From: Anaerolineales bacterium
Lineage (GTDB): Bacteria > Chloroflexota > Anaerolineae > Anaerolineales > Villigracilaceae
Assembly (NCBI GenBank): GCA_017882145.1
Contig: JADGQB010000005.1
Coordinates: 1 to 50,310 of the forward strand
Length of the DNA stretch: 50,310 bases
Direction of reading: 5' to 3'
The notes beneath the pieces are model-generated. The model saw only the letters and a program-made list of their open reading frames with translations. It made no database searches and was not told the DNA's origin. This document shows positions 6,674 to 29,874 of the stretch, piece after piece. Within the stretch, counting starts at the first letter, position 1, and every line of letters starts with the position of its first letter. Made by a program: the position numbers and the translations under genes.

Positions 6674-6695
6674 ATTAAAAAATGAAATAATTGCC

Positions 6696-7013
6696 ATGAA
6701 GCGTGTTGGTTTTCAATTCAAAGTCAGACCAGACCGTCTGTCTGAGTACAAGGAACATCACAAAAACGTCTGGCCGGAAATGCTGGAAGCGTTGCATGAG
6801 ACTGGCTGGCATAACTACACACTATTCATGCGCGCAGATGGTTTAATATTTGGCTATTTTGAAACCAATGAGAGTCTGCAAGCTGTCCAGTCAAGGATGG
6901 CAGATAAAGATGTCAACACACGCTGGCAGGAATTTATGTCCCAGTTTATGGATTCGAATGCGCGCCCGGATGAGACATTTATCGAACTCGAAGAATATTT
7001 CCACCTGGAATAA
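6696..7013 (+). CDS. rhaM: L-rhamnose mutarotase
   Basis: 105 residues, the standard size of RhaM/RhaU. It interconverts the alpha and beta anomers of L-rhamnose. Family marks: MKRVGFQFKVRPDRLSEY at the N-terminus, EHHKNVWPEM (catalytic-site His), GWHNYTLFMR, and the C-terminal LEEYFHL. The ATG at 6696 is chosen over the longer open frame because MKRVGF is the conserved start. It ends two bases before the rhamnulokinase start, as in rhizobial rhaU-rhaK. This gene is the firmest evidence that the operon's substrate is rhamnose. Confidence 0.95.
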   Translation: MKRVGFQFKVRPDRLSEYKEHHKNVWPEMLEALHETGWHNYTLFMRADGLIFGYFETNESLQAVQSRMADKDVNTRWQEFMSQFMDSNARPDETFIELEEYFHLE

Positions 7014-7015
7014 TT

Positions 7016-8494: not shown

Positions 8495-8608
8495 GATGAA
8501 GCTTTATCCGCTAAGTTCGTTTTAATCCATTCGACAAAAAATGATGATCAGCGGGCTCTCCCCATGGAGCTAAGAGAATGGGAAATTTTAAAACAAGGAG
8601 AAATGTGA

Positions 8609-16071: not shown

Positions 16072-16383
16072 ATGCACAGTCACAATGTATTCTTTTGGCT
16101 AAAAGAGGGGTTATCCGATTCTGATCTGCTTGAATTTGAAAAGGGGTTGGATACACTCCTCATGGACCGGCTGGTAATAAACGGCCGTTATGGCAAGCCA
16201 GCCGATACCCACCGAGATGTCGTCGAGAATACCTATACTTATGCTCTCTCCTTGCTATTCAAAGATACGGCGGACCATAACCTCTACCAGGCTGATTCAG
16301 TCCACCTGGCATTTGTCGAGAAGCATTCAGCAAAATGGAGCAGGGTCAAGGTTTTTGACGTAGAGGTGCAGAAAAGCCGATAG
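16072..16383 (+). CDS. Dabb-domain (stress-responsive alpha/beta barrel) protein
   Basis: 103 residues, a single Dabb ferredoxin-like domain: HNVFFWLKEGLSD at the start, NGRYGKPADTHRDVV in the middle, TYALSLLFKD, and LYQADSVHLAFVEKH near the end, followed by a VKVFDVEV strand. Such small dimeric proteins are poorly defined; some are cyclases or carry small ligands. It lies 80 bases after the FMN oxidoreductase in the same direction and before a good terminator, so the two probably form one transcript. Confidence 0.82.
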   Translation: MHSHNVFFWLKEGLSDSDLLEFEKGLDTLLMDRLVINGRYGKPADTHRDVVENTYTYALSLLFKDTADHNLYQADSVHLAFVEKHSAKWSRVKVFDVEVQKSR

Positions 16384-16405
16384 GGGTGGATATATTTGGA
16401 TAATT

Positions 16406-16432
16406 AAAGACCCGTCTTTATGGCGGGTCTTT
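16406..16432 (+). terminator. Rho-independent terminator, possibly bidirectional
   Basis: AAAGACCCG at 16406-16414 pairs perfectly with CGGGTCTTT at 16424-16432 around a 9-base loop. T-rich sequence follows on the plus strand and, read on the minus strand, T residues also follow the stem. It lies between the convergent Dabb and E1-beta genes and can end both transcripts. Confidence 0.75.
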
Positions 16433-16527
16433 ATCGATTACCCGGTGGACGGGTACGGGTCCATTTGCTTAGCCTGACGCAACAGACTTTTGGAGCCTGC
16501 CAGGCGGACTAGTAAGTTTTGTTCACG

Positions 16528-17553
16528 TCAGCCTGCCACCAGCTTCAACGCCGCTGCGACTACACGCTGTACGGAGGGAACATACTCGTGCTCCAGGACA
16601 GGCGCGGTCGGCGCGGGCGTGTCGGGCGCGGCCACACGGGTGATAGGCGCATCCAGATGGAAGAAAACGGCCTCAGACAGGCGGGCAGCGACTTCTGCGC
16701 CCCAACCACCGGTGAGGTTGTCTTCCTCCACAATCAACACGCGGCCTGTTTTCTGGGCGGAAGCGATGAGCGGCTGCATGTCCAACGGGACGAGACAGCG
16801 CATGTCAATCACTTCGGCGTGGACGCCCTGCTGGTCCAGTTCTTGCGCGGCATCCATAGCCCGGTGCAACATAAGCATGTTGGCAAGCAGAGTCAAATCG
16901 CTGCCCTGGCGTTTGACCGCGACCGTGCCGAGCGGAATTTCGTAATCTTCTTCTGGCACGCTGACAACCTTGGCGGCAGAAGATGATTCCTTGCGCCCGC
17001 CTTTTCCACCGTACAGCAATTTATGTTCCAAAAATACGACCGGGTTGTTGTCGCGAATGGCGGCGAGCAGGAGTCCCTTGGCATCGTATGGATTGGATGG
17101 GCAGACAACTTTCAGACCGGGCGTGTGCATGAACCAGGCTTCAGTACTCTGCGCATGTTGCGCACCGCGCGCGGATGCGCCTACCGGCAAGCGTAGAACC
17201 ATCGGCACGGATACCTGCCCGTTGCTCATATAATGCATCTTGGCGGCCTGGTTGACCACCTGATCCATAGCGCAGAAGACGAAGTCGCCATATTGCATCT
17301 CGGCCACCGGACGCATCCCAACCAACGCCGCCCCAACGGCGGCACCGACGATGGCAATCTCGGAGATGGGTGTATCCATCACGCGGGCATGGCCGAATTC
17401 GTCCGACAAACCGAGGGTAACAGTAAAGCCGCCGCCAAACCCGCCTGGAATGCCGAGATCCTCACCGATAAGGAATACCGCCGGGTCGCTGAGCATGGCA
17501 ACACGCAATCCATCGCGCAACGCCTCGACCATGGTCATCTCGCGGGTGCTCAT
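16528..17553 (-). CDS. 2-oxoacid (or acetoin) dehydrogenase E1 component, beta subunit
   Basis: 341 residues, full length for E1-beta. It pairs with the alpha subunit encoded just upstream to decarboxylate a 2-oxoacid, or cleave acetoin, using thiamine diphosphate. Marks: REMTMVEALRDGL, IGEDLG, GFGGGF, VMDTPISEIAIVGAAVG, QYGDFVFCAMDQVVNQAAK, and the C-terminal transketolase-type domain with VEEDNLTGGWGAEVA. The start ATG overlaps the alpha stop (ATGA at 17553-17550). It is last in the minus-strand operon and ends before the terminator at 16406-16432. Sequence by eye does not separate pyruvate, branched-chain and acetoin types. Confidence 0.9.
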   Translation of the reverse strand: MSTREMTMVEALRDGLRVAMLSDPAVFLIGEDLGIPGGFGGGFTVTLGLSDEFGHARVMDTPISEIAIVGAAVGAALVGMRPVAEMQYGDFVFCAMDQVVNQAAKMHYMSNGQVSVPMVLRLPVGASARGAQHAQSTEAWFMHTPGLKVVCPSNPYDAKGLLLAAIRDNNPVVFLEHKLLYGGKGGRKESSSAAKVVSVPEEDYEIPLGTVAVKRQGSDLTLLANMLMLHRAMDAAQELDQQGVHAEVIDMRCLVPLDMQPLIASAQKTGRVLIVEEDNLTGGWGAEVAARLSEAVFFHLDAPITRVAAPDTPAPTAPVLEHEYVPSVQRVVAAALKLVAG

Positions 17554-18530
17554 TGGCGCTCCTTAAACACATGCAGGTATGTCTCTTCAATGCCCGGCTC
17601 CGGGCTGTTGCGGGCGAACTCAACTGCCTCCTCGACCTCCGACTGGCAGGCGTTTTCGATCGAAATAAGCTCTTCTTCAGCCATCCCACGCTCCGTGATC
17701 AGCAATGCCCGCATATGCGAAATTGGATCACGCTCGCGCCAACGCTGCACTTCATCGCGAGTCCGGTAGCCCCCAGGATCGCCGCGTGAGTGACCGGCGT
17801 AGCGGTAAGTTTTGCACTCCAGCAAAGTCGGACCATTTCCCTGCCGCGCTCTTTCCACGGCTTCCAGCACAGCATGATGGACGGCCAGAACGTCCATCCC
17901 ATCTACCACACGCCCCGGAATGCCGTATGCCGCGGCACGATCGGCAATATCCGTAATCCGGAGCATTGAAGAGATGGCGGTTGAGGCGCCGTACTGGTTG
18001 TTTTCACACACAAAGATGACGGGTGCGTTTTTCACTGCGGCGAGGTTGATCCCTTCGTGAAACGCGCCGATATTGGAGGCACCATCGCCGAAGAAACTCA
18101 CCGCCACGCGATCCTGCCCGCGCAATTGAAAGGCCAGCGCTGCTCCGGTGGCGATGGGAATGTTGGCGCCCACAATGGCGTTGGAGGGCATGGCGCCCAC
18201 GGTTACATCGGTGAGGTGCATCTGTCCGCCTTTGCCGCCTGCGCATCCGGTGGCCTTGCCCATTATTTCGGCGGCGATGCCGCGCGGCGAACTGCCGCGC
18301 GCGAGCAGATGACCCACAGGCCGGTGGGTGCTGAAGATCACATCATCGGGCCGGAGAGCTATGCACACGCCGACTGCCACCGCCTCCTGGCCCTGATATT
18401 GATGCAGGGTGCCAGGGACTGCCCCTTGCAGGAAGAGGGCATACAGATGATCCTCAAAGCGGCGAATCAATACCATCCGCCTGTACATCTCGCGTGCGGT
18501 CTCCAACGGAAAGTTGTCAGATCCGGTCAT
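17550..18530 (-). CDS. 2-oxoacid (or acetoin) dehydrogenase E1 component, alpha subunit
   Basis: 326 residues from the ATG at 18530, which overlaps the E2 stop by 4 bases; the longer open frame lies inside E2 and is rejected. The thiamine-diphosphate motif begins at GDGASN (148-153) and ends at ENNQYG (176-181). Other marks are MVLIRRFEDHLY, LHQYQGQEAVAVG, GGKGGQMHL, the phosphorylation-loop-like RYAGHSRGDPGGYRT and the short C-terminus. The length fits acetoin-dehydrogenase and bacterial pyruvate-dehydrogenase alpha chains equally well. It acts with the E1-beta and E2 of this operon. No E3 (lipoamide dehydrogenase) gene is present in the window. Confidence 0.9.
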   Translation of the reverse strand: MTGSDNFPLETAREMYRRMVLIRRFEDHLYALFLQGAVPGTLHQYQGQEAVAVGVCIALRPDDVIFSTHRPVGHLLARGSSPRGIAAEIMGKATGCAGGKGGQMHLTDVTVGAMPSNAIVGANIPIATGAALAFQLRGQDRVAVSFFGDGASNIGAFHEGINLAAVKNAPVIFVCENNQYGASTAISSMLRITDIADRAAAYGIPGRVVDGMDVLAVHHAVLEAVERARQGNGPTLLECKTYRYAGHSRGDPGGYRTRDEVQRWRERDPISHMRALLITERGMAEEELISIENACQSEVEEAVEFARNSPEPGIEETYLHVFKERQ

Positions 18531-19726
18531 TCGCTGATCTCCTTTGGTGGCTCGAGTGAGAGAACCAACGGGTTCTCCAGCAATTGTCTGAATTCTTCCA
18601 GGAACTTCGCGACGGTGATACCGTCCACGGCGCGATGGTCCACAGCGAGCGTTGCCGTCATCAGCCAGCGCAAGGCAAGATTTCCCTGCCAAGCCGCCGG
18701 TTGTTCCTTCGCTGCACCGAGCGCCAGGATGCCGGCTTCCGGTGGATTGATGACTGCGCTGAAACTATCCAGCCCATACATGCCCAGGTTGGAAACGGTG
18801 AAGGTTGCTCCGCTTAGCTGCAAACTAGAAAGTTGGCCGGTTTCGGCCCCTTTACGCAACCGGCGGGTGGCGGCTGCGAGCGTGAACAGATTCAGCCGGT
18901 CAGCATGACGCACCACCGGAACCAACAACCCCTCCGCCAGCCCGATCACCAACCCGATATGAATATCGTCATAGTACAGGATCTCCTCGCCGCGAAATGA
19001 AACATTGAGGGCGGGAGTTTGACGCAATGCCAGTGCGGCTGCACGCAGGACCAGGTCGGTGATCGTAGGTGCGGCCCAGCTGTTCTTCGCAGCCATCCCT
19101 GCAGCCTGCTTGAGCATGGCCCTGGCCTCGGTCATATCAATGACCACCGATCCTTGGAAATGCGGTACTTCAGCATTACTTCGTTGTGTGAGTTCAGCGA
19201 TGGCTCGCCGCATCGGTGAAAGAGGCACTCTTCGCAGCCCGATTTCGGCGCGAGTTTGACCAGCGGTGCGAACTATGTCGCGTTTTAGGATCTGGCCTTG
19301 CGAGCCGCTGGCTTTTACGGTCGCCAGATCGAGACCGAGTTCTGCCGCCATGCGGCGGGCGAGGGGGGAGGAAAGTTTCCGCCGGGTACGCAGGTCACTG
19401 GTCTCGGGGAGTTTTTCCTTTTGCTCTACCAGTTTTTCGATCCCGACCGCCTCCAACCCAGCTGAAATACTACTCAAGGGTTCCTCAAGTGTGTCGGACA
19501 TCCGGCCGACGACCGTTTGCACGGATACAATTGCTCCAGGGGAAACCAGGGTTTCACGTAAAAAGCCGTCGCGAAATGCTTCCACCTCTACGGTGGCTTT
19601 ATCGGTCGTTACCATGAACAACGCCGATCCGGATTTCACGAATTGCCCAGGCTTTACCAGCCATTCCTCCAAGACCACATCGCCGCCAGTAGCACCCAGG
19701 GCAGGGATGACAATTTCGTAGATCAA
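18527..19726 (-). CDS. Dihydrolipoamide acyltransferase (E2)
   Basis: 399 residues with the full E2 plan. A single lipoyl domain covers residues 1-78, with Lys43 in TTDKATVEV as the lipoylation site. A peripheral-subunit-binding domain lies at about 118-155 (SSPLARRMAAELGLDL, GSQGQILKRDI). The C-terminal catalytic domain ends with DHRAVDG (catalytic His364). Its start is a TTG overlapping the upstream stop (TTGA at 19726-19723), consistent with coupled translation. It transfers the acyl group made by E1 to CoA. The usual E3 partner must come from elsewhere in the genome. Confidence 0.9.
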   Translation of the reverse strand: MIYEIVIPALGATGGDVVLEEWLVKPGQFVKSGSALFMVTTDKATVEVEAFRDGFLRETLVSPGAIVSVQTVVGRMSDTLEEPLSSISAGLEAVGIEKLVEQKEKLPETSDLRTRRKLSSPLARRMAAELGLDLATVKASGSQGQILKRDIVRTAGQTRAEIGLRRVPLSPMRRAIAELTQRSNAEVPHFQGSVVIDMTEARAMLKQAAGMAAKNSWAAPTITDLVLRAAALALRQTPALNVSFRGEEILYYDDIHIGLVIGLAEGLLVPVVRHADRLNLFTLAAATRRLRKGAETGQLSSLQLSGATFTVSNLGMYGLDSFSAVINPPEAGILALGAAKEQPAAWQGNLALRWLMTATLAVDHRAVDGITVAKFLEEFRQLLENPLVLSLEPPKEISE

Positions 19727-20625
19727 GGCTGCTTCCTTTCGGGTTTAAATACTCTCATCCAATCTTCCACCATTTTCTGCAAAGCCAGCCTGCCAGCGGT
19801 GAGCACATCGCCGGCCTGCCCGGAGCCGATCACCTCGTATGGATTGTAATCGTCCCCGACCTGGATAGCTGCCTTGCGCACTGCTTCAAAGTAAGTCCGT
19901 TTGAGGGCGCTGCCCACATTGACCTTGCTAATGCCCAGATGGATGGCTTCGGATAGATCGTCGAAGTCCACAGATGTGGCCCCATGCAGGACCAGCGGAA
20001 CCTTGAGCGCCTGCTTGAGATTCGCAACGAGTGGGAGATTCAAGCGCACCCGCCTCCGTCCGTGCAAATGCGCCTGCCCAACGTTGACAGCAAATGCATC
20101 GACGCCGGTACGCTGGATAAAGTCCAGAGCGCGATCGGGATCAGTAAGATGCAGATCGTCGGGCATGGCTAAAAGTTCGCCTCCCACACCGGGCAGGGAT
20201 ACGCCTTCGCCTTCTACTGCCACCCCGGTCGCGTGCGCTTTTTTGACCACCGAGCGAACCTTTTCAACCTGACCGTCGAAGCTGAGCGTTTCGTCGCTGA
20301 ACATTACGAGACCAAAGCCGAGTTTGATGGCTTCCAACACCCATTCAAAATCCGGCGATTCGTTGAACACCAGGCAAGCAGGCACAGAAAGCCGGTGGAT
20401 GGCTTCAAGACCAAGCGCAGAATACAGACTGAGTGGTTCGTGCACTATCCGGTCTGGATGAGGCAGGTAGATGCCGCTGAAACCCAACAGGACCGGCGAG
20501 TGTGTTGCTTCGGCAGCGTCGCACACTGCCAGCAGGGATTCCAGATTCCAGCTTTCAAAGTAACCGACCGCATAGCCCCCACGCTGCGCATCGGACATCA
20601 AATCATTGAACGAGGCAAGTGGCAT
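19723..20625 (-). CDS. Class II ketose-bisphosphate-aldolase-like protein with altered active site
   Basis: 300 residues with the fold signatures of class II fructose/tagatose-bisphosphate aldolases: AVGYFESWNLESLLAVCDAAE, VEGEGVSLPG, NVGQAHLHGR, VPLVLHGATSV and SKVNVGSALKRTYFEA. The segment that normally reads LDH (catalytic Asp plus a zinc His) is LVFNES here, so both residues appear lost. The two later His (AHLHG, LHGAT) are kept. The intact paralogue at 46356-47258 keeps LHLDH, which makes the contrast clear. It may be an aldolase with a shifted mechanism, an epimerase-like enzyme or a binding protein. ATG at 20625 follows GGAG and lies 13 bases after the formyltransferase stop. Confidence 0.78.
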   Translation of the reverse strand: MPLASFNDLMSDAQRGGYAVGYFESWNLESLLAVCDAAEATHSPVLLGFSGIYLPHPDRIVHEPLSLYSALGLEAIHRLSVPACLVFNESPDFEWVLEAIKLGFGLVMFSDETLSFDGQVEKVRSVVKKAHATGVAVEGEGVSLPGVGGELLAMPDDLHLTDPDRALDFIQRTGVDAFAVNVGQAHLHGRRRVRLNLPLVANLKQALKVPLVLHGATSVDFDDLSEAIHLGISKVNVGSALKRTYFEAVRKAAIQVGDDYNPYEVIGSGQAGDVLTAGRLALQKMVEDWMRVFKPERKQP

Positions 20626-20638
20626 TATGCTCCATAAA

Positions 20639-21586
20639 CTACAAAATACTGCCGACCTTCAAGCCAAATTTTGCACAAAATGCTGCTAGGGAACGTTTGT
20701 CTTCGCCATCGGGCCGAACCCAGCGCACTGTCAGTGCATCCTGACCGGTTGCAAGGGTAGCGGAGTATCTTCCCAACCGGATCAATTCGCCGGGGACGGC
20801 TGTACCAGAATAAGGTTCAACCTTTGCGTTGAAGAAGTACACGCGCCGGCCCGCCACCATTCGCCAACATTCTCCCGGAGAGGTTTGTATCCAACGCCGC
20901 AGGCTCTCCGCCGGGCGAGTCAAATCTAGTTGGAAGTCTGCGTCGCTTACGGAGGAGAAATACGAGGCACCGGCTTGCGGTTGAGGTATTCGGGGCAGCG
21001 AACCTTTCGCTACGTCTGTGACCAGACGTGGAACCAGCGACACACTTTTATTGATGATGCGTTCATAAAGCGAGCTGACCGTATCCTGTTTGCGTGTGCG
21101 TACCCGCACTTGATATAGAACTTCGCCGGTATCAAAATGCGGATCCATCACATGCGCGCTGAGACCTGCCTGGCGCTCGCCGTTTCGCAATGCCCAGAAC
21201 ACAGGGTGCTTGCCACGATAGGCCGGAAGGAGTGAGGCGTGCAAGTTGACTGCGAGCAGGCGCGGAATAGAAAGAAGGGCTGGTTTGAGCAGGAACATGT
21301 ATCCGGCGGCGAGGAACAAGTCAGGAGAGAGACCGGCCAATGTTTCTTCAAAATCGGGTGTGTTGGGGTTGGACGGCTCGAAGACCGGCGTTCCACGCTC
21401 ACGGGAAGTGTCTACAAAACTGGGTTTACCACTCCCCGTCCAAGGGTTGGTGGACTGCCGCTTTGCAGGCGGCACATCCACCACCCCGGCCAGATCGCAG
21501 GGTGTATCCAGAAGAGGATTGAAGAACCGGTTGCTGAATACACTCTGCGAGTTTCCAAAGAAGATGATGCGCAGGTTTGCGCTCAC
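20639..21586 (-). CDS. Formyltransferase-fold protein (Fmt/PurN-like)
   Basis: 315 residues from the GTG at 21586, which overlaps the upstream stop as GTGA; a TTG one codon earlier is the alternative. The N-terminal half is the formyl-transferase hydrolase fold with the catalytic Asn and His in VNLHASLLPAYRGKHPVFWAL and the Asp in DPHFDTGEVLYQ. The C-terminal half resembles the Fmt C-terminal barrel (PGELIRLG, ALTVRWV). This suggests transfer of a formyl group from 10-formyltetrahydrofolate. A housekeeping role on Met-tRNA is unlikely inside a catabolic operon. The true acceptor is unknown; sugar-nucleotide formyltransferases show that other acceptors exist. Confidence 0.82.
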   Translation of the reverse strand: MSANLRIIFFGNSQSVFSNRFFNPLLDTPCDLAGVVDVPPAKRQSTNPWTGSGKPSFVDTSRERGTPVFEPSNPNTPDFEETLAGLSPDLFLAAGYMFLLKPALLSIPRLLAVNLHASLLPAYRGKHPVFWALRNGERQAGLSAHVMDPHFDTGEVLYQVRVRTRKQDTVSSLYERIINKSVSLVPRLVTDVAKGSLPRIPQPQAGASYFSSVSDADFQLDLTRPAESLRRWIQTSPGECWRMVAGRRVYFFNAKVEPYSGTAVPGELIRLGRYSATLATGQDALTVRWVRPDGEDKRSLAAFCAKFGLKVGSIL

Positions 21587-22440
21587 CAACGTTTTACACC
21601 TTCCGGATAATGAACTGCCTTGAACGAGGCGGCACGCTCTTGCAGCGGAACTTCCACCGCCATACGCTCGATACTTGAGCCCAACTGAATTCCGTGGCAG
21701 TCGGTGTGGTCGAGCATATATTGTGCATCTTCCTGATTTACCAGCGCCGCACCGTGCGCCAGCAGGATCACATCGGGTTTCAGCTTTTTTGCGATGGCAT
21801 AGTGCGACTGGCTGCGCTTCGCCATGTCTTCCAGCCCCTGGCTGGCGCTGTAGCCGGTGGAACCACCGCGTGTGATGCCGGCGTGATAGATGAAAATGTC
21901 GGGTGCAGCATCGCGCATCAACCGCTCGGCGTCGACTTCGTTGAAGGCGTAGCCGATAGTCAGCAGGTCCAACTCGTGGGCATAATTGAGCATGTCAATT
22001 TCGTGCTGGTAGCCCAGGCCGGTACCTTCCAGCGTTTTGCGGAAGTCGCCGTCGAACCATGCCACGGTCGGGAAGTTGTGGACCCCAGAAAAGCCGATGT
22101 GCTTGATATCTTCGAGGAACAAGCGCATATCGCGCAGAACGTCCACGCCGTTCAATCCAGCGATGACCGGTGTTTCCTTGACTTGCGGAAGAACTTCGCG
22201 CTTTCCGACCTGATAGACCATTTCATTGGCGTCAGCCATGGGCAACATCCCAGCCAGTGAGCCGTAGCCCTGCATGCGGAAGTAGCCGGTGTTGTACACG
22301 CCCAGGATATCCACGCCTCCACGTTCGATGAACTTGGCTGCAATCCCGTTGCCCGCGCCGGTCATTACCAATGGCTTGCCGCGTTTAATCTCGGCCCATA
22401 GGCGGTCGAGGAACTGTTGGCGGGTATACCGTTTTGCCAT
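21583..22440 (-). CDS. Phosphoenolpyruvate-hydrolase-like TIM-barrel protein (Tm-1 C-terminal type)
   Basis: 285 residues. It belongs to the PEP hydrolase family related to PEP mutase/isocitrate lyase and to the C-terminal half of plant Tm-1. Marks: GKPLVMTGAGNGIAAKFIERGG, DILGVYNTGYFRMQGYGSLAG, GFSGVHNFPTV, FIYHAGITRGGSTGY and LLAHGAALVNQEDAQY. An AGGAGG 6 bases before the ATG at 22440 fixes the start. It lies 9 bases after the Tm-1-like gene, a pairing that is fused in the plant protein. The reaction is unproven; C-C bond cleavage or hydrolysis of an enol phosphate is suggested by the fold. Confidence 0.85.
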   Translation of the reverse strand: MAKRYTRQQFLDRLWAEIKRGKPLVMTGAGNGIAAKFIERGGVDILGVYNTGYFRMQGYGSLAGMLPMADANEMVYQVGKREVLPQVKETPVIAGLNGVDVLRDMRLFLEDIKHIGFSGVHNFPTVAWFDGDFRKTLEGTGLGYQHEIDMLNYAHELDLLTIGYAFNEVDAERLMRDAAPDIFIYHAGITRGGSTGYSASQGLEDMAKRSQSHYAIAKKLKPDVILLAHGAALVNQEDAQYMLDHTDCHGIQLGSSIERMAVEVPLQERAASFKAVHYPEGVKRW

Positions 22441-22449
22441 AACAACCTC

Positions 22450-23670
22450 CTATTTTTTAGCCCGGATCAAATCGATCAGAGTCTGAGCGGCTTCGACCGC
22501 GAACGCCGGGTCATCGATGTAAGTGTCGCGCTCGATCAAGCGGATGTTTTTCGGCAAGTCTTTCTTCAGCGCTTCCACGAAAGCCGCATCAGCCTCAGGA
22601 TCGTAAAATCCAAAGCCTTTCACTGCGTAACTGTCATAGCCGGCAGTTGGGATCATGAAGACAGCATTGCCCTTGGTTGATTGCAGGCGGCGGGCGACTT
22701 CCTTGCCCACCTCTGCCATCTCCTGCTTGTTCAGGCGTACATCGGTGATCTGCGGGCTGTGCCGGATGAGGGTGCGGGTATTGTAAGGTGACGGGACGGT
22801 CTCCGGTTCGCCATACACCAGAACTTCAATCGCGCCGGGGCACAGCACTTGCGGCAGGCCGAGTTTTCCGGCAGTCGTTAACCGGTCCGGTCCGCCCGCC
22901 AGCATGGCATGGTACATCTCGTTGGATACCTCGATGGTCGAGTAATCCAGCACCGCGGCAATCAGCCCTTCTTTCATCATTTGTTCCATGGCGCGCCCGC
23001 CGGGACCGATGGCATGGAATGTGATGGTCTCAAAGCCAGCGGCCTCCAGCACCTCGGCAGCTTTCATCGCACCCAGGGTGGTGATGCCCACAGTAGTGAC
23101 AGCAACGAGAGGTTTCTCTCTATGCTCCAGCTTTACTTCCACGCCGGCCATGCCGCACACCGCTCCAGCGGCATTCGCCAGAATCTTACGCATGACTGGA
23201 TTTAACCCCATAATATCTGTGACAGAGAACATCATGGTGATGTCACGGATGTCGACCCACGGGCCGACATTGCCGGAAGCCATGGTGGACACCATCACTT
23301 TCGGAAAACCATAGGGTAGGGCGCGCATCACATGGGTACTGAGGGTAGTTCCCTGTGTCCCACCCATTGCCACGATACCGTGGATCTTGCCTTCCTCCGC
23401 CAACCGGGAGACAATTTTCGTAGCTCCCTCGGCCATTACCGGCGCAGCCACATCGCGGGATGGATTCGCCAGGATTTTAGCCAGCGGCATCCCACCTGCC
23501 TCGGCCACTTGCTCGCGGGTGATATCCGGAAGGGTGCCGGGAGTGCCGGTCACACCCGTATCCACCACCAGGGCTTTATCGCCGAACTTCTCAATCTGCT
23601 CGCGCAGATACTGTGCTTCGCGGCCTTTGGTATCCAGGGTCGCCAGCACAACAATCGTTTTTCCACTCAT
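22450..23670 (-). CDS. Tm-1-like ATP-binding domain protein (UPF0261)
   Basis: 406 residues, full length for UPF0261. It has TIVVLATLDTKGREAQYLREQI at the N-terminus, then VVDTGVTGTPG, GIVAMGGTQGTTLSTHVMRALP, VSTMASGNVGPWV, FHAIGPGGRAMEQMM, and the C-terminal MIPTAGYDSYAVKGFGFYD. The family resembles the N-terminal ATP-binding half of tomato Tm-1; its metabolic reaction is not established. It is tightly followed by the PEP-hydrolase-like gene, and the two are presumably partners. AAGGA lies before the ATG at 23670. Context suggests a role on a sugar-derived acid or phosphate. Confidence 0.85.
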   Translation of the reverse strand: MSGKTIVVLATLDTKGREAQYLREQIEKFGDKALVVDTGVTGTPGTLPDITREQVAEAGGMPLAKILANPSRDVAAPVMAEGATKIVSRLAEEGKIHGIVAMGGTQGTTLSTHVMRALPYGFPKVMVSTMASGNVGPWVDIRDITMMFSVTDIMGLNPVMRKILANAAGAVCGMAGVEVKLEHREKPLVAVTTVGITTLGAMKAAEVLEAAGFETITFHAIGPGGRAMEQMMKEGLIAAVLDYSTIEVSNEMYHAMLAGGPDRLTTAGKLGLPQVLCPGAIEVLVYGEPETVPSPYNTRTLIRHSPQITDVRLNKQEMAEVGKEVARRLQSTKGNAVFMIPTAGYDSYAVKGFGFYDPEADAAFVEALKKDLPKNIRLIERDTYIDDPAFAVEAAQTLIDLIRAKK

Positions 23671-23682
23671 GGTATTGTGTCC

Positions 23683-24513
23683 TTATCCGACCTGTTTTCG
23701 AAGCCACTCGACCGAAGGCTGGATGTTTTCTTCGCCATCGCTTTCGATTGACAAGACTCCATCCCAATCGGTCTGCTTGAGGAATTGGACACACCCGGCG
23801 ATGTTGGGGGCGTTGACGCCCTGCCCGATGGGCACCACCGAGGCCGAGATACCGGTCTCCTTGCCGCGCACTGCATCGGCCAAGCCCTTGCTCACATCCT
23901 TCACGTGTACATGGTTGACGTACTTGCGTACTTTTTTCAGGAAAGCGAGCGGATCGTTGCCGGCGATGAAAGTGTTGCCAGTGTCGAAGTTGATCTGAAC
24001 GTACTCGGACTGGAACGGCTCGATAATCCCCAAGAGTGTCTCGGTATTATTGGTGAAAGGGCCGTGCGGTTCCACGTTGATGATCACTTTGTGATTCTCT
24101 GCGAACGGGACACATTGCGACAGGTGGTAGCGGATGCGGTCGAGTTGTTCTTTATCCGAGAGGCCCGGAAGTTTGGTCTGGCCGTCGGTGGTATCCACCC
24201 GCGTGCAGCCGAGTAGACCGGCAAAGATAATCCCGCGCTGGATGAATTCAATACACTCCCAGCGATTAATCGGGAAGGAAACGTCAAACTCCGAGACTTT
24301 CAAGCCGTACTTGTCGAGTTTCTTACGCAGTTCCAGCGGGTCACTGTCCAATGGGATAAAGGGCGCAAAGCCCAGTCCGGTGAAGAATTCCGCGCCTCCC
24401 ACGGCTTCAAGTTCGCAATATTCCACACCTTGTTTGGCTATTTTATCGAAACAATAGTCAATTGGTTTGTCTGCGTGGCGCCAGTTGTCAGTGTTGATTC
24501 CGATCTTGATCAT
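23683..24513 (-). CDS. Sugar phosphate isomerase/epimerase (xylose-isomerase-like TIM barrel)
   Basis: 276 residues, AP-endonuclease-2/IolE-type TIM barrel. Likely divalent-metal ligands are the Glu in INVEPHG, the Asp in NFDTGNT, the His in HVHVKDVS and the Glu in LSIESDG, the usual E-D-H-E set. GGAG precedes the ATG at 24513. It is first in the eight-gene minus operon, directly after the candidate promoter at 24621-24647. It probably isomerises, epimerises or dehydrates the sugar that enters this pathway; the substrate cannot be read from sequence. Confidence 0.84.
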   Translation of the reverse strand: MIKIGINTDNWRHADKPIDYCFDKIAKQGVEYCELEAVGGAEFFTGLGFAPFIPLDSDPLELRKKLDKYGLKVSEFDVSFPINRWECIEFIQRGIIFAGLLGCTRVDTTDGQTKLPGLSDKEQLDRIRYHLSQCVPFAENHKVIINVEPHGPFTNNTETLLGIIEPFQSEYVQINFDTGNTFIAGNDPLAFLKKVRKYVNHVHVKDVSKGLADAVRGKETGISASVVPIGQGVNAPNIAGCVQFLKQTDWDGVLSIESDGEENIQPSVEWLRKQVG

Positions 24514-24647: not shown

Positions 24648-24864
24648 TAAACATAACATCACCAATCAAGTTTTGATTTACTAAACCTGTCAACCTTCAC
24701 CTATGGACGAAAAACCCATCCCACCCAACCGAGCAAAACTAACGGAATCGTAAAAACGATACAGATTCTCAGTTTTACATGAAAAGATGGAAGAGGATTC
24801 GGGGTGCGCCCATGCCTTTTGTCATTACCAATAGTGAATAATGTTATTATTTTCATATTGCTTC

Positions 24865-24892
24865 TTGACTTTTCTGAATTCCGCTGTACAAT
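24865..24892 (+). promoter_or_regulatory. Candidate promoter of the ROK regulator
   Basis: TTGACT at 24865-24870, a 16-base spacer and TACAAT at 24887-24892. It lies about 70 bases before the chosen ATG at 24963. Confidence 0.5.
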
Positions 24893-24894
24893 TT

Positions 24895-24913
24895 GTTTGT
24901 TGAGACAACCAAC
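24895..24913. promoter_or_regulatory. Operator-like palindrome, candidate ROK-regulator site
   Basis: GTTTGTTG (24895-24902) and CAACCAAC (24906-24913) match as inverted repeats in seven of eight positions around an AGA centre. It sits directly after the -10 box, where binding would block transcription. Autorepression by the ROK protein is inferred. Confidence 0.4.
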
Positions 24914-24962
24914 TATGTGTAGTGATGTGTGGCTTTCGTCGAAACAATTCCCAAAACCCAAC

Positions 24963-26207
24963 ATGATTCCTGTTAATCATTATCGGACTGGTGATCAAGC
25001 CCTTGTACGCGAAATCAATCTTTCGTTAATCATGAATCACCTGCGCACAAACGCACCCATCTCACGGGCTGCCCTGGCGGAAACAACCGGTTTAAACAAG
25101 ACCACTGTTTCCAGCCTGGTTAACGAATTGATCGAGCGCCAGTTCGTGCAAGAAATTGGGCTCGCATCGCCGAGTTCAGGGCGCCCTGCCACGCTGCTGA
25201 AACTAAATCCAACCGCAGGTTTTATAGTCAGTTGCGAAATTGGGACTTATTTTATTCTTGTCATTTGTACGGATTTTTCGCCCAAGGTCATTTGGCGTCA
25301 CCAAGAACCATTTGATCTTGAACTTGGCCAGCATGCAATCATCGAACGCATGCTGGCTATTTTAAATCAGGCAATTGAGTCCGGGTGCAGTGCATGTGGC
25401 CCGCTCCTGGGTATCACAATCGGAATCCCTGGCCTGGTCGACCAGTCTACCGGAACGTTGTTGTTTGCCCCCAACCTGGGGTGGAAAGATATACCCATCC
25501 GTGCCATATTACAAGAGTCATTCAAAGTACCCTTGTTTGTGGACAACGAGGGTAATATTGCCGCCCTGGGCGAGCACTACTTCGGTGCGGCGGAGGGATA
25601 TGATGAGGTGCTTTATATTAGCGCAGGAGTCGGTTTGGGTGGGGGGATTGTCCATAACGGGCATGTGTTCAGCGGTGTGACCGGTGTGGGCGCCGAATTT
25701 GGGCACATGACATTAGATCCGGATGGAGAGATCTGCAAGTGTGGCAACCAGGGTTGTTGGGAGACCCAGGTGAGCCAACAGGCACTTTTTCGCCACGTTT
25801 GGAGACGAATTAATCAGGGGGAGGTCAGCAGACTGGCTGAAATGACAGGTCGCAGGCGAGATGCTCTGACAGTACCCTTGATCGTTGAGGCAGCGCGGGC
25901 GGGTGATGCCGTGGCGCTGACAGCATTGGAGATCATCGGGCGTCACCTGGGGATTGGGATTGCCTCCCTGGTGAATGCACTGAATCCTGAACTGGTCGTA
26001 TTTGGTGGTATCCTTAGCCTGGCGGGGGAATTCCTGATGCCAGTCATTGAAAAGGAAGTTGAGCAGCGCACCCTGAAATGGAATCGCGGTGCCATGCGAT
26101 TGGTGCTGGCCAAGCACGGCTCGGATGCATGTGTAATGGGCGGCGTGGCGACAGTTTACCAGGCGATCCTGGCACAACCAGATATCGTGGGCGCGCTTTT
26201 TGCATGA
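24963..26207 (+). CDS. ROK-family transcriptional regulator (NagC/XylR type)
   Basis: 414 residues from the ATG at 24963. The open frame extends upstream, but those codons look unlike protein and no ribosome-binding site marks any start. Residues 31-57 form the winged-helix DNA-binding part (ISRAALAETTGLNKTTVSSLVNEL split over the helix pair). The rest is the ROK sugar-kinase fold: GITIGIPGLVD, VDNEGNIAALGEHYFG, LYISAGVGLGGGIV, and the zinc motif CKCGNQGCWE. XylR-type ROK proteins sense xylose or glucose. Its place between the minus operon and the xylose-containing plus cluster makes it the likely regulator of one or both. Confidence 0.9.
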   Translation: MIPVNHYRTGDQALVREINLSLIMNHLRTNAPISRAALAETTGLNKTTVSSLVNELIERQFVQEIGLASPSSGRPATLLKLNPTAGFIVSCEIGTYFILVICTDFSPKVIWRHQEPFDLELGQHAIIERMLAILNQAIESGCSACGPLLGITIGIPGLVDQSTGTLLFAPNLGWKDIPIRAILQESFKVPLFVDNEGNIAALGEHYFGAAEGYDEVLYISAGVGLGGGIVHNGHVFSGVTGVGAEFGHMTLDPDGEICKCGNQGCWETQVSQQALFRHVWRRINQGEVSRLAEMTGRRRDALTVPLIVEAARAGDAVALTALEIIGRHLGIGIASLVNALNPELVVFGGILSLAGEFLMPVIEKEVEQRTLKWNRGAMRLVLAKHGSDACVMGGVATVYQAILAQPDIVGALFA

Positions 26208-26362: not shown

Positions 26363-27790
26363 ATGTTTAAGAAATTAGCATTTGCACTAACGCTCGTCAT
26401 GGTAATGGTCATCACCGCCTGCGGACCTGCAGCCACTACCGTTGCTCCTGCGACCGTAGCACCCGCACCTGCGACCGCCGCTCCTGCGACCGCCGCTCCT
26501 GCGACCGCCGCTCCTGCCACTGCTGCCCCCGCTGGATCAAAAGTCACGCAATTAACGATCCTGTGGGCTCAATGGTCCCCGGCCGATTACCTGCAACAGA
26601 TCGGCAACATGTACGAGCAGGAAACCGGCATCAAGGTAAACGTCGTACAGGAACCCTGGGGTTCGTTTGGTGACCGGTTCAATGTTGCCATGGCTGCCGG
26701 CGGCACCGAGTGGGACATGGTTGGTGGTGACAGCCAGTGGGTCGGCCAAGGCGCAACTGCAGGCTACTATGTTGACCTGACCGATTTCATGAAGAGCAAT
26801 GGAATTGACAAGACCGTCACCCCCGCCACACTGCAATACTACGGCGAATATCCGGCTGGCTCTGGCAAATACTGGGGCTACCCGCTCGAAGGCGACGCGG
26901 ATGGTTGGGCCTATCGCACGGACCTCTTCACGGATCCTGCCAATATGGCTGCCTTCAAAACCAAATACGGCTATGACCTGGCTGTCCCCACGACCTGGGC
27001 CCAGTTGATGGACATTGCCAAGTTCTTCACCAAACCGGATAAGAGCATGAACGGTGTGGCGATCTATACCCAGAAGGACTACGATGCCATTACGATGGGC
27101 TTCGAGAACGTCATGTTCTCCTATGGCGCCAAGTGGCAGGCACCGGACAATACCGTCGAAGGTGTGGTCAACTCACAGGCAGCTATCGATGCTTTGCAGT
27201 ACTATCGCGACCTGTATGATTGCTGCCAGGCACCCGGCCTGAATAACGCTTTCTACACCGAAACCAATGATGCTTACATCGGCGGCCAGGTTGCGATGGC
27301 CATGAACTACTTCGCTTTCCTGCCGGCGTTGGCCAACCCCAGCACCGATCCGTATGCCAAAGTCACCGGCTACTTCGCCAATCCTGCCGGCCCGACCGGC
27401 AAACGGGCTGCAGCCCTCGGTGGTCAAGGCTTGAATGTCATCGCATTCGTCAGCCCGGAACGCCAGCAGGCTTCGCTTGATTTCATCAAGTGGTTCGCCC
27501 AGGAGAAGATCCAGGCACAATGGGCCGCTCTTGGCGGCTATACCTGCAACGCCAACGTGCTTAAGACCGATGCGTTCATGAAAGCGACCCCCTACAACCC
27601 GGCCTTTTCCGAGACCATGAACTTCGTTATGGACTTCTGGAACATCCCGACCTACGCTGCACTGCTGACCCCCTCGCAGAATAATTTGAGCGCCTTTGTT
27701 GTTGGAGGAACCGGCACAGCCAAATCGACCATGGACGCGATTGCGGCAGAGCAGACGGCTGCGTTGAAGAATGATAAGGTTATCCCCTAA
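26363..27790 (+). CDS. Sugar-binding lipoprotein of a CUT1 ABC importer
   Basis: 475 residues, family 1 solute-binding protein. The signal peptide ends at a lipobox (VITAC, Cys20). A linker of Ala-Pro-Ala-Thr-Ala repeats (to about residue 57) then projects the binding domain from the membrane. The mature part shows LTILWAQWSPADY, YEQETGIKVNVVQEPWGSF, WDMVGGDSQWV and the usual C-terminal FIKWFAQEKIQAQW. GAGGAG lies about 10 bases before the ATG. It is first of five transport genes. The ligand is unknown; later genes suggest a pentose, polyol or oligosaccharide. The preceding 155 bases show no clear promoter. Confidence 0.9.
   Translation: MFKKLAFALTLVMVMVITACGPAATTVAPATVAPAPATAAPATAAPATAAPATAAPAGSKVTQLTILWAQWSPADYLQQIGNMYEQETGIKVNVVQEPWGSFGDRFNVAMAAGGTEWDMVGGDSQWVGQGATAGYYVDLTDFMKSNGIDKTVTPATLQYYGEYPAGSGKYWGYPLEGDADGWAYRTDLFTDPANMAAFKTKYGYDLAVPTTWAQLMDIAKFFTKPDKSMNGVAIYTQKDYDAITMGFENVMFSYGAKWQAPDNTVEGVVNSQAAIDALQYYRDLYDCCQAPGLNNAFYTETNDAYIGGQVAMAMNYFAFLPALANPSTDPYAKVTGYFANPAGPTGKRAAALGGQGLNVIAFVSPERQQASLDFIKWFAQEKIQAQWAALGGYTCNANVLKTDAFMKATPYNPAFSETMNFVMDFWNIPTYAALLTPSQNNLSAFVVGGTGTAKSTMDAIAAEQTAALKNDKVIP
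26465..26524 (+). repeat. 15-base tandem repeat in the lipoprotein linker
   Basis: Four consecutive 15-base units encoding Ala-Pro-Ala-Thr-Ala; the first three are nearly identical in bases and the fourth has drifted. A related partial unit precedes them. Such repeats can change number by slippage, which would alter linker length without breaking the frame. Confidence 0.8.
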
Positions 27791-27833
27791 ATCAACGTTG
27801 CTGTTGAAGTAAAACTTTCAACTTATCTTTTTC

Positions 27834-27863
27834 TTGGGGAGGCGGCATATGCCGCCTCCCCAA
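27834..27863 (+). other. 30-base perfect palindrome after the binding-protein gene
   Basis: Bases 27834-27848 and 27849-27863 are exact inverted copies, forming a very GC-rich stem with a CATATG tip. No T-run follows. It lies between the lipoprotein and first permease gene and probably stabilises the upstream mRNA or ends part of the transcripts, so that binding protein exceeds membrane subunits. Confidence 0.7.
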
Positions 27864-27891
27864 CCATAGCCGCCAAGAAAGAGGCAGGATT

Positions 27892-28845
27892 ATGTCAGCA
27901 AGTGAATCCCAATTTAGCGGTCCAAACCTCAAGGTCCGGCAGCGCCATCTGAGTAATCGGGCAATCGTCAACCTGTTCATCTGGCCGACGCTGATACTCT
28001 TGATCGCAATGAACGTTTTCCCGCTGTTTTACAGTCTGTATCTCGGTTTTACCAATTACTCCGCAATTGCAGGAAAGGCGCCGGTATGGGTGGCGTTTCA
28101 AAACTTCAGTAGAATCTTGAATGATAAGAATTTATGGACATACTTCGCCACCACAGGCCGATATGCCTTGATGTCAGTCAGCTTGCAGGTTCTGGTTGGT
28201 TTTGGATTGGCAATGCTGGTGCGTGAAAAATTCAAGGGCGGGGGTATTTTGACCACGCTGATCCTAATCCCCATGATGATCTCACCGGTGGTGGTTGGCT
28301 TGTTTTGGAAGCTGATGTATAACCCCACCTTTGGCTTTTTTGATCCTCTAATCGGCTTTGCGAATCCTTCCAAAGCTCCGGATTGGCTGGCCAGCCGTTT
28401 TGCCGGTCAACCGGTGCCTGGTCTGGCCCTTTTAGCAGTGGTAATCGTGGATGTATGGATGTGGGCGCCGTTCGTGATGCTGCTGGTCCTTTCCGGACTG
28501 AAAGCCATTCCTGACTACCTGTATGAAGCCGCGGCCGTTGACCGGGCCAGCTCATGGTTCCAATTCTGGCGCATCACCTTGCCGCAGGTTGCACCCCTGT
28601 TGTTGATTGCCGTACTTTTCCGCACCATCGAAGCGTTTAAATCGTTTGACCTGGTGATGGGCATGACTGGAGGCGGACCTGGCGTACAAACTGAGTTGAT
28701 ATCAGTCGACCTCTACCGGATCGCATTCCTGGGACAATTCCGCACTGGTTATGGAAGTGCGTTGGCATATATCATCCTGATCATCATTATTGCTATCAGC
28801 AACCTGTATATCAAATATCTGAATCAAAGCAAAGGAGAGGGTTAA
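27892..28845 (+). CDS. CUT1 sugar ABC importer permease (UgpA/MalF-like)
   Basis: 317 residues with six predicted membrane segments. The first is FIWPTLILLIAMNVFPLFYSLYLGF, split around residues 28-52. The EAA loop that contacts the ATPases is near residues 200-225 (YEAAAVDRASSWFQFWRITLPQVAP). It forms the channel with the next permease. GAGGCAGG precedes the ATG. It lies 3 bases from the next gene. Confidence 0.92.
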   Translation: MSASESQFSGPNLKVRQRHLSNRAIVNLFIWPTLILLIAMNVFPLFYSLYLGFTNYSAIAGKAPVWVAFQNFSRILNDKNLWTYFATTGRYALMSVSLQVLVGFGLAMLVREKFKGGGILTTLILIPMMISPVVVGLFWKLMYNPTFGFFDPLIGFANPSKAPDWLASRFAGQPVPGLALLAVVIVDVWMWAPFVMLLVLSGLKAIPDYLYEAAAVDRASSWFQFWRITLPQVAPLLLIAVLFRTIEAFKSFDLVMGMTGGGPGVQTELISVDLYRIAFLGQFRTGYGSALAYIILIIIIAISNLYIKYLNQSKGEG

Positions 28846-28848
28846 CCC

Positions 28849-29847
28849 ATGGCTTCCTTTGAAGAGACTGGACCCCGAACCCCGGTTGTCGAACCGACCC
28901 GGGTTGACAAGGTACACCCGCGTGCCAAATTGGGGAAATCCTTCCGGGTGATCCTTACCCTGATCGTAACCTTCATTATGATCATCCCTGTCCTGGTGAT
29001 GATCATGACGGCCTTTAAATCCCGCGCCGATATCGTCACGCCGCCTCCCAAGGTGTTATTCCATCCGACCCTGGAAGGCTTTCTTTACCTGTTTACAGAC
29101 CGCTCCCTGTTCTCCCCTTCCAATCTGGAAGCCGCACGAGCCAATCCCGGGAATCTGGATTATTGGCAAAAACTCGCTCTCAGCGTAGGGCAAAAAATCA
29201 ATGGACCCAGTGACTACGTCGGCCGCTTGAAGAACTCGGTAATCATCGCCGGGACTTCTACGATCCTATCGGTGATATTGGGATTGTTTGCTGCCTATGC
29301 CTTCAGCCGATTTAAAATTGCCGGGAAGGACGACCTGTTATTCTTTATTCTGAGTACCCGTATGCTGCCGGGAGTAGTTGTGACCATTCCGCTTTTCCTA
29401 TTGTATAAACAGTTGGGATGGAATGACACACATATCGGGATGATCATTCTCTATACCGTGTTCAACCTCTCGTTTTCAGTTTGGTTGCTGAAGGGTTTCA
29501 TTGATGAGATCCCGATCGAGTATGAAGAGGCTGCCCTCGTGGATGGTTATACCCGCTTGCAGGCTTTCTTCAAGATCGTCCTGCCCCAGGCTGTCAATGG
29601 GATCGCCGCGACAACCGTCTTTTGCCTGATCTTTGCCTGGAATGAGTATGCTTTTGCGCTCATGCTCACCAGCCAGAAAGCCCGCACGGCTCCGCCCAGT
29701 ATCGCCACCATGCTTGGTAGTGGAGGCCTGGAATGGTCGGCAATTGCCGCCGGCAGCCTGGGCTTCCTGATTCCTGTGGCGATCGTTACATTCGTGCTGC
29801 GGGATTACTTGCTGCGCGGCGTCACCTTTGGCGCCGTCCGCAAGTAA
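28849..29847 (+). CDS. CUT1 sugar ABC importer permease (UgpE/MalG-like)
   Basis: 332 residues. After a 35-residue cytoplasmic N-terminus comes the first membrane segment (VILTLIVTFIMIIPVLVMIM). A long outside loop of about 80 residues follows, larger than in MalG. Four or five more segments come next, with the EAA loop YEEAALVDGYTRLQAFFKIVLPQ at about residues 223-245. It ends with LRDYLLRGVTFGAVRK, typical of this subunit. GGAG lies just before the ATG at 28849. Confidence 0.92.
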   Translation: MASFEETGPRTPVVEPTRVDKVHPRAKLGKSFRVILTLIVTFIMIIPVLVMIMTAFKSRADIVTPPPKVLFHPTLEGFLYLFTDRSLFSPSNLEAARANPGNLDYWQKLALSVGQKINGPSDYVGRLKNSVIIAGTSTILSVILGLFAAYAFSRFKIAGKDDLLFFILSTRMLPGVVVTIPLFLLYKQLGWNDTHIGMIILYTVFNLSFSVWLLKGFIDEIPIEYEEAALVDGYTRLQAFFKIVLPQAVNGIAATTVFCLIFAWNEYAFALMLTSQKARTAPPSIATMLGSGGLEWSAIAAGSLGFLIPVAIVTFVLRDYLLRGVTFGAVRK

Positions 29848-29874
29848 ACATCTTGATAAAAATGGAAAATAAAC

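Follow-up and report, generated by a model that had tools for sequence, protein, structure and literature searches.

A recurrent gene cassette joining a UPF0261 and PEP-hydrolase-like protein pair to an altered aldolase and a TPP/lipoyl dehydrogenase: a candidate catabolic operon in an Anaerolineales bacterium

The tomato protein Tm-1, which blocks a virus, combines a UPF0261 domain with a TIM-barrel domain of the phosphoenolpyruvate (PEP)-hydrolase type. According to the title and abstract of PMC5028733, the one paper found to treat this pair in the open-licence literature, the two domains are generally encoded by separate genes in bacteria and fused in plants, and an interaction between the two Tm-1 domains has been proposed from co-evolution. 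The same two domains are found in the eight-gene block described here, which lies in a stretch of 50,310 nucleotides (nt) from an Anaerolineales bacterium (assembly GCA_017882145.1, contig JADGQB010000005.1, positions 1-50,310, forward strand), hereafter the window. The assembly comprises 4.15 Mb in 448 contigs and is 86.75% complete. Compared with the Tm-1-type pair, the PEP-hydrolase-like protein (PEPH) of the window falls into a distinct group, in whose loci a thiamine pyrophosphate (TPP)/lipoyl dehydrogenase and an altered aldolase, both absent from 19 control loci, are often found.

A second point of comparison is offered by the acetovanillone pathways of Rhodococcus GD02 (Hpe), Sphingobium SYK-6 (Acv) and Novosphingobium (MarK), which, according to PMC9618137 and PMC13101465, open with an ATP-dependent phosphorylation. 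In the same sources, HpeHI and its homologue AcvAB are described as phenylphosphate synthase kinases (PMC9618137), and acetovanillone breakdown in N. aromaticivorans is described as beginning with the single-component kinase MarK (PMC13101465). A UPF0261 protein of this bacterium binds acetovanillone, as given in the title of entry 9mpy, ‘Structure of Saro_1862, a UPF0261 domain protein from Novosphingobium aromaticivorans with bound acetovanillone’. Unlike the Hpe and Acv systems, the eight proteins of the window's block, which were those checked, include no carboxylase or phosphatase, and a sugar-type transporter and isomerases are found instead.

The eight open reading frames (ORFs) of the block are all open and follow one another on the minus strand, from 24513 down to 16528, as judged from the ORF calls and the sequence. 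In order of reading they and the repeat behind them are:

23683-24513, minus strand: xylose-isomerase-like TIM barrel protein, 276 aa, first gene of the operon (PF01261, 115.9 bits)
22450-23670, minus strand: UPF0261/Tm-1-like protein, 406 aa (PF06792 and PF23189, UPF0261 N and C domains, 205 and 223 bits)
21583-22440, minus strand: PEP-hydrolase-like protein PEPH, 285 aa (PF09370 PEP_hydrolase, 304 bits)
20639-21589, minus strand: formyltransferase-like protein FMT, 316 aa, TTG start (PF00551 and PF02911, 99.5 and 34 bits)
19723-20625, minus strand: class II aldolase-like protein (the altered aldolase), 300 aa (PF01116 F_bP_aldolase, 174 bits)
18527-19726, minus strand: E2 dihydrolipoamide acyltransferase, 399 aa, TTG start (PF00364 Biotin_lipoyl, PF02817 E3_binding and PF00198 2-oxoacid_dh, 39, 47 and 226 bits)
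17550-18530, minus strand: E1-alpha, TPP-dependent dehydrogenase subunit, 326 aa (PF00676 E1_dh, 304 bits)
16528-17553, minus strand: E1-beta, TPP-dependent dehydrogenase subunit, 341 aa (PF02779 Transket_pyr and PF02780 Transketolase_C, 152 and 125 bits)
16405-16433, no strand: perfect inverted repeat with 10-nt arms and a 9-nt loop, just past the last stop codon

Pfam families were found above their curated cut-offs for all eight proteins, which bears out the family list drawn up in an earlier sequence-only reading of this DNA. That reading had also taken the eight genes to be one unit made together, and the layout agrees, with a single strand, a terminal hairpin and four junctions at which start and stop overlap (7 nt for PEPH/FMT and 4 nt each for aldolase/E2, E2/E1-alpha and E1-alpha/E1-beta); gaps of 12, 9 and 13 nt separate the genes at the remaining three. 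The E1-alpha start was taken as the ATG at 18530, the longest ORF beginning upstream at 18692. Ahead of both E1 genes, and of FMT and E2 with their TTG starts, lie purine-rich Shine-Dalgarno-like stretches, read by eye and unscored. The inverted repeat probably marks the transcription end; it was not flagged by a terminator scan with a loop limit of 8, and a promoter scan performed at chance level (6 found against 5.3 expected). An assembly artefact was rejected, the same gene order being seen in independent assemblies. The block may with moderate confidence be regarded as one catabolic operon and not a chance cluster.

Conservation was assessed by a locus scan of a species-genome collection, which was not exhaustive and used two PEPH queries (from the window and from genome G129) and two short peptide patterns. 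Twenty eight loci (L numbers below) were obtained, of which 26 carry a PEPH 66-90% identical to that of the window, and it is by this identity that their clade membership was set. Going by record titles, these 26 come from seven phyla, namely Chloroflexota, Planctomycetota, Hydrogenedentota, Poribacteria, Gemmatimonadota, Spirochaetota and that of one Hyphomicrobiales metagenome-assembled genome (MAG), the seventh phylum being represented by L087 alone, which is outside the tree. L045 and L072 are apparently the same contig, and L067 and L092 are from one MAG. In a PEPH tree of 76 rows, the 22 close rows (the window, G129 standing for L072, and 20 other loci) formed one group with support of 100/100 and a stem of 1.38 changes per column; L078, L086, L087, L088 and L092 are outside this tree, from which hits shorter than 240 aa or with a stop character were dropped. 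The FMT of G129 is 55% identical to that of the window (370 bits, the next match scoring 125) and has beside it a UPF0261 protein and a PEPH that are 80-81% identical.

Of the 26 close-PEPH loci, 23 have UPF0261 and 11 have the altered aldolase. E1-beta is also present in 11, in one of them as a fragment, and E1-alpha in 10; FMT and a lipoyl/E2 match were found in 8 each and the TIM barrel protein in 3 (L072, L075 and L080, at 68-77% identity). At least one of FMT, altered aldolase and E1 was present in 15. By comparison, FMT, aldolase, E1 and E2 were found in none of the 19 wider-family control loci at E <= 1e-5. These controls were hand-picked from the loci of a PEP_hydrolase survey of 301 genomes together with the second pair of the window's own genome; two are shorter than 5 kb and one is without UPF0261 (18 with). 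The joint recurrence of the families across phyla, with their absence from the 19 controls, is more than chance.

Gene order is also shared to a considerable degree. UPF0261 immediately precedes PEPH in 22 of the 26 loci (11-252 bases between matches) and is one gene away in L070. Seven of the eight genes are present in window order in L081 (UPF0261-PEPH-FMT-aldolase-E2-E1-alpha-E1-beta), the order UPF0261-PEPH-FMT-aldolase is common to L071, L065 and L074, and L080 has TIM-UPF0261-PEPH-FMT. L068 and L072 deviate in having E1 and E2 before UPF0261. The contig of L075 ends after PEPH, and FMT and the altered aldolase open another contig of the same genome; in the genome of L088, FMT and aldolase lie ~77 kb from the UPF0261-PEPH locus, at a second place (L122) that reads PEPH (part)-FMT-aldolase. 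The sequence-only reading was to be refuted if the block did not extend beyond one strain; the co-occurrence search found its core in several phyla, as a rare unit. The cassette is most likely a patchily distributed lower pathway with a core of UPF0261, PEPH, altered aldolase and TPP/lipoyl dehydrogenase.

The wider PEPH family is more common, with PEP_hydrolase matches in 57 of the 301 genomes sampled from the window's phylum, and the UPF0261-PEPH pair is also present on plasmids of Rhizobium, Sinorhizobium, Vibrio and haloarchaea. No third gene was common to all of six plasmid neighbourhoods of wider-family pairs. The window's own genome carries a second pair on contig C307 that is only ~43% identical. 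This pair (L046:124-3955) belongs to the wider family, outside the tree group of the window's PEPH, and is preceded by a TIM barrel (PF01261) and by a membrane protein of the TauE/SafE type. A long form was observed on Azospirillum and Terrarubrum plasmids, where PEP-hydrolase-annotated genes of ~1.8 kb (L095:4815-6641 and L098:9334-11184) lie near ordinary UPF0261-PEPH pairs.

The UPF0261 protein of the window has both UPF0261 domains and the Tm-1 fold. Its sequence aligned with 9mpy over the full length at 215 bits and with tomato Tm-1 (3wry) at 166. The predicted model had a mean predicted local distance difference test (pLDDT) score of 87.5, with values below 50 at residues 131-141 and 150-153, and its best fold matches were tomato Tm-1 (3wrw) and 9mpy, with a whole-chain TM-score of only ~0.53, perhaps because the two halves are set differently. 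As these nearest structural relatives are Tm-1 and an acetovanillone-bound protein, the UPF0261 protein is, by analogy with 9mpy and MarK, a probable small-molecule kinase. The PEPH model (mean pLDDT 86.9) gave 2p10 as the top fold match, followed at TM 0.53-0.61 by 2-methylisocitrate lyase and phosphonopyruvate hydrolase, with further matches at ~0.5-0.6 to Pdx1, PEP mutase and ketopantoate hydroxymethyltransferase. PEPH has the fold of the isocitrate lyase/PEP mutase superfamily, PDX1 chains matching too; the model suggests an enzyme of this fold, for which a lyase role is proposed. A kinase-like protein next to one of isocitrate-lyase/PEP-mutase fold makes a phosphorylated intermediate likelier than cleavage of a free keto sugar.

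In class II aldolases an Asp-His pair supplies the catalytic Asp and the first metal ligand, and two further His are metal ligands. The sequence-only reading had noticed a changed active site in the aldolase of the block, and this was found throughout the cassette, with Asn88-Glu89 at the position of the canonical pair in 12 of 12 members aligned; the pair is kept in the five solved aldolases aligned with the cassette enzyme. The two further metal histidines, H186 and H214, are invariant in all 12. The alignment points to a possible Glu-His-His metal site from which the usual catalytic Asp is gone, and with the pair lost ordinary aldol cleavage cannot be assumed. The protein passes the Pfam cut-off and is under the cut-off of all 18 NCBIfam models (e.g., cbbA, 128 of 216 bits; scores below are likewise given against the cut-off). 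In the 301-genome phylum sample it was found in the window's genome only (521 bits), and the next three matches, at 211-227 bits, look like ordinary aldolases.

Asn-His-Asp and SLLPxYRG are the catalytic features of the formyltetrahydrofolate-using transferase/hydrolase superfamily. FMT has the residues of this superfamily, N115, H117, S119-P122, Y124-G126 and D153 being invariant in the eight sequences aligned, which covers most of the SLLP-YRG stretch. It is below the cut-off in all seven matching NCBIfam formyltransferase models (fmt, 128 of 201.5; ArnA, 118 of 777 bits). In a plasmid search with FMT, only ~28-32% identity was seen among the matches listed (20 of 382 records), and the named genes among them are ordinary formyltransferases.

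E1-alpha, E1-beta and an E2 with lipoyl, binding and catalytic domains are the components of a 2-oxoacid or acetoin dehydrogenase, and the same domains are found in the acetoin and pyruvate dehydrogenase complexes. The window differs from these in that E1-alpha (366 of 394) and E2 (241 of 445) are below the NCBIfam equivalog cut-offs; four relatives have no E2 core in their loci and carry the lipoyl domain as a fusion to E1-alpha. An ordinary pyruvate dehydrogenase operon was rejected, although E1-beta scores as one, since the five other genes would be left unexplained. The lack of an E3 in the operon, pointed out in the sequence-only reading, was confirmed. A whole-genome search gave 12 lipoamide dehydrogenase matches, all of them on contigs other than the window's and a single one above the cut-off (551 bits, contig C403), so the missing E3 needs no special explanation. 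Relatives of E1-alpha (68-72%) and E1-beta (73-78%) are present in L070, L077, L078, L081 and L082, and a second, more distant E1-beta group (57-60% to the window) in L069, L071, L072 and L079, with L068 at 50%. The L065 locus has no E1-beta; one at 61% elsewhere in that genome could be the cassette partner. The complete E2 makes an acyl-CoA product plausible in the window's version.

The dehydrogenase occurs in two versions. Four loci (L070, L077, L078 and L082) have a lipoyl domain that shares the open frame of E1-alpha, on the N-terminal side, and is the sole E2 match in the locus:

L070:13488-14972: lipoyl-E1-alpha fusion (open frame and domain matches)
L077:2996-5470: lipoyl-E1-alpha fusion, also with E1-beta (open frame and domain matches)
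L078:7447-8928: lipoyl-E1-alpha fusion (open frame and domain matches)
L082:11768-13258: lipoyl-E1-alpha fusion (open frame and domain matches)

Three of these frames are 493-496 codons from stop to stop, and that of L077 is a single 824-codon frame with lipoyl, E1-alpha and E1-beta; the domain order was confirmed by NCBIfam for L082. Other E2 genes are present elsewhere in the four genomes. The fusion is possibly an unusual architecture for a TPP/lipoyl enzyme. FMT was present in all five sets with a separate E2 gene (the window, L068, L069, L072 and L081) and gave no match at E <= 1e-60 in six altered-aldolase genomes (L070, L077, L078, L082, L079 and L085), searched as whole assemblies that may be incomplete. 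The association of FMT with a separate E2 (5 against 4 loci) had a Fisher p of 0.008, uncorrected for relatedness. This contrast leaves out L071 (FMT, no E2 in the locus), L079 (cut off by the contig end behind E1-beta) and all loci lacking E1, and it includes L068, in which E1 and E2 are only 50 and 39% identical and the E2 match covers the second part only. Two genome searches bearing on FMT and the altered aldolase covered the genomes of 20 and 17 of the 26 loci, that for E1-beta paralogues 13 and that for E2 five. With FMT missing from the fused version and present with the separate E2, FMT and the E2 core appear to be optional together and not part of the pathway core. Nor is an E2 acyltransferase beside E1, as in the route of the sequence-only reading, obligatory, the four fused loci having a lipoyl domain only.

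Taken in outline, as a kinase-started catabolic operon that would end in TPP/lipoyl oxidation, this reading of the block stands in our estimation about evenly balanced. The operon, the domains, the conserved residues and the conserved linkage were observed directly. Several points weigh against the outline. All 26 loci are from MAG-titled records, and none of the 17 other genomes of the window's family carries PEPH, which makes the unit patchy. Eleven of the 26 loci are without FMT, aldolase or E1 (in three the sequence stops with PEPH or right behind it, in two others no more than 2.7 kb downstream), which argues that UPF0261-PEPH can stand alone. The E1s of L068, L069, L071, L072 and L079 are only 49-60% identical to those of the window and may not be strict orthologues, other E1-beta genes reaching 50-56% in the five cassette-E1-beta genomes searched, and the window's E1-beta passes the NCBIfam pyruvate dehydrogenase E1-beta subfamily cut-off (334 of 321), so that its substrate may be of the pyruvate type. 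The kinase role draws on MarK being Saro_1862 (9mpy), an identity that we infer, and the same applies to the substrate, the products, every reaction and the order of steps.

A step-by-step version of the outline can be given only tentatively and is on balance doubtful, the order of its enzymes being set by what their families are capable of. The TIM-barrel enzyme would isomerise or dehydrate a ketone derived from a sugar or cyclitol. The UPF0261 protein would use ATP to phosphorylate the oxygen of an enol or enediol, in the way that its relative presumably acts on acetovanillone, whose phenol is an enol, and PEPH would break a C-C or C-O bond of the resulting phospho-enol. The altered aldolase, acting as a metal lyase or isomerase at its possible Glu-His-His site, would free a 2-oxo acid or acyloin. 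E1-alpha/beta with TPP would then pass the acyl part to lipoate and E2 would pass it to CoA, with an E3 shared with the cell. FMT would be an accessory enzyme, shuttling formyl between an intermediate and tetrahydrofolate in the version with separate E2 and an acyl-CoA product; the other version would carry lipoate on E1-alpha and have no dedicated E2. The UPF0261 step is the best supported from outside; as FMT is dispensable, its step has the least support.

No described pathway with this gene set was found in the open-licence literature searched, in agreement with the sequence-only reading, and within that literature the conserved cassette is apparently undescribed. The UPF0261 and PEPH pair is widespread, and an operon that ties one clade of it to recognisable downstream enzymes gives a handle on the pair's role. 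We know of no established everyday role of Tm-1 in plants, and the step-by-step route, if true, would provide a model for the normal function of the fused plant protein. The altered aldolase and the lipoyl-E1-alpha fusion are testable enzyme novelties.

The sequence-only reading had proposed isomerisation and C-C cleavage of a keto sugar, an obligatory formyl transfer to or from folate and oxidative acyl transfer ending in an acyl-CoA, a route that now appears unlikely. Its acyl-CoA end is kept as plausible by the complete E2 of the window, and the invariance of N115, H117 and D153 in all eight FMT sequences, together with the pairing of FMT and separate E2 in five sets and the lack of both in the four fused loci, is what would be expected of it. 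The obligatory formyl step falls, however, with the six altered-aldolase genomes in which FMT was not matched at E <= 1e-60, and L071 has FMT with no E2 in its locus. The isomerisation and cleavage of a free keto sugar fare no better, as they give the kinase-like and lyase-like pair no step and rely on an aldolase without its Asp-His pair.

Upstream of the cassette the relatives vary. In three loci a RuBisCO-like protein stands directly upstream:

L069:8285-9712: RuBisCO-like protein
L071:1687-3036: RuBisCO-like protein
L079:3596-4945: RuBisCO-like protein

These are 87% identical among the three loci (PF00016, 140 bits for the L069 copy) and are accompanied by an isomerase-like TIM protein; behind the cassette, L069 and L071 also have a rhamnulokinase-like kinase (452-462 of 528). 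Their best NCBIfam match in all three cases is an MtnW-type enolase (275-281 of 409), the OiaX model giving 154-162 of 700, and being below the MtnW, OiaX and RuBisCO cut-offs they fall in no named subgroup. With the L069 protein as query, it was found in three of the 28 loci and not in the window. RuBisCO-like proteins are involved in D-apiose pathways, as given in PMC6302742; the presence of one beside the cassette in three relatives is a likeness to these, set against the low OiaX score and its absence from the window. Nothing treating this gene set was found in the open-licence literature on RuBisCO-like/apionate and rhamnose pathways, judged from titles.

These neighbours would suit a 6-deoxysugar route, in which an isomerase and the rhamnulokinase-like kinase give a deoxyketose phosphate, the RuBisCO-like protein shifts the carbonyl and E1 cleaves the 1-deoxyketose to acetyl-CoA in the fashion of acetoin dehydrogenase, and the window itself has a rhamnulokinase-like kinase at 7016-8494 (497 of 528). 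We consider the route quite improbable: 25 of the 28 loci and the window gave no RuBisCO-like match, the E1s of L069, L071 and L079 are just 54-60% identical to those of the window, the RuBisCO-family and isomerase cut-offs are not reached, and UPF0261, PEPH and FMT would have no role.

The kinase-started outline is supported by the sugar context of the operon, which includes xylose isomerase and xylulokinase in the window, both over their cut-offs, and on the divergent side a regulator and a transporter:

24804-26207, plus strand: divergent ROK-family regulator (PF00480, 213 bits, with winged-helix matches; true start uncertain, searched from 24972)
26363-32030, plus strand: sugar-type ATP-binding cassette (ABC) transporter with a binding protein, two permeases and two ATPases (SBP_bac_1, two BPD_transp_1, two ABC_tran)

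The transporter is the probable uptake system of the regulon. In L065, matching transporter genes follow the cassette on the same strand, with a binding protein 59% identical. The divergent promoter region showed no inverted repeat. At 41827-46005 the window holds a 399-aa protein with no Pfam or NCBIfam match, a TIM barrel, an IolM-like alcohol dehydrogenase and a psicose-epimerase-like protein, and this four-gene set recurs with its order kept in L065 and L092, immediately ahead of UPF0261; it is possibly an upper pathway feeding the cassette. From these arrangements the cassette seems to act as a shared lower part supplied by varying upper parts, and this would favour a carbonyl intermediate common to several sugars or cyclitols.

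An aromatic-ketone pathway like Hpe/Acv, with UPF0261 phosphorylating a lignin-derived hydroxyphenyl ketone, is very improbable in this setting of sugar-type transport, sugar isomerases and sugar kinases. The nearest solved bacterial UPF0261 relative was crystallised with acetovanillone and E1-E2 would yield an acyl-CoA, but the eight proteins hold neither the biotin-dependent carboxylase nor the phosphatase of the Hpe/Acv pathways, as these are described in PMC9618137 and PMC13101465. Least probable of all is that UPF0261-PEPH and the TPP/lipoyl dehydrogenase are two or more unrelated adjoining units, since this would suit the bare control loci and the 11 close-PEPH loci that show none of FMT, aldolase and E1, but not the four overlapping junctions in the window or the recurrence of these neighbours across several phyla, frequently in matching order.

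Catabolism of myo-inositol, of the Bacillus iol or Thermotoga type, uses IolE, a TPP enzyme and the class II aldolase family. The TPP enzyme and the aldolase family are common to the operon, in which E1-alpha/beta presumably belong to a different TPP family from IolD. The TIM barrel of the first gene is distantly IolE-like (its best NCBIfam match) and neighbours in the window are distantly IolG- and IolM-like. The Bacillus-type inositol pathway was rejected, the scores for IolE (45 of 290), IolG (97 of 355) and IolM (201 of 450) being far below the cut-offs.

Other features of the window are of a similar kind. A second sugar module at 1828-9319 comprises Rbs-type ABC transporter genes (from the ORF reading), the rhamnulokinase-like kinase and a class II aldolase/decarboxylase-like protein (93 of 250). 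A TIM barrel and a levoglucosan-dehydrogenase-like Gfo/Idh protein (357 of 650) are located at 34112-36335, a pair also seen near clade genes in L065, L067 and L076. A small Dabb-domain protein (36 bits) on the plus strand at 16072-16383 converges on the end of the operon, and a lactate-racemase-like protein with LarA N and C domains (48809-50134) stands at the end of the sugar island.

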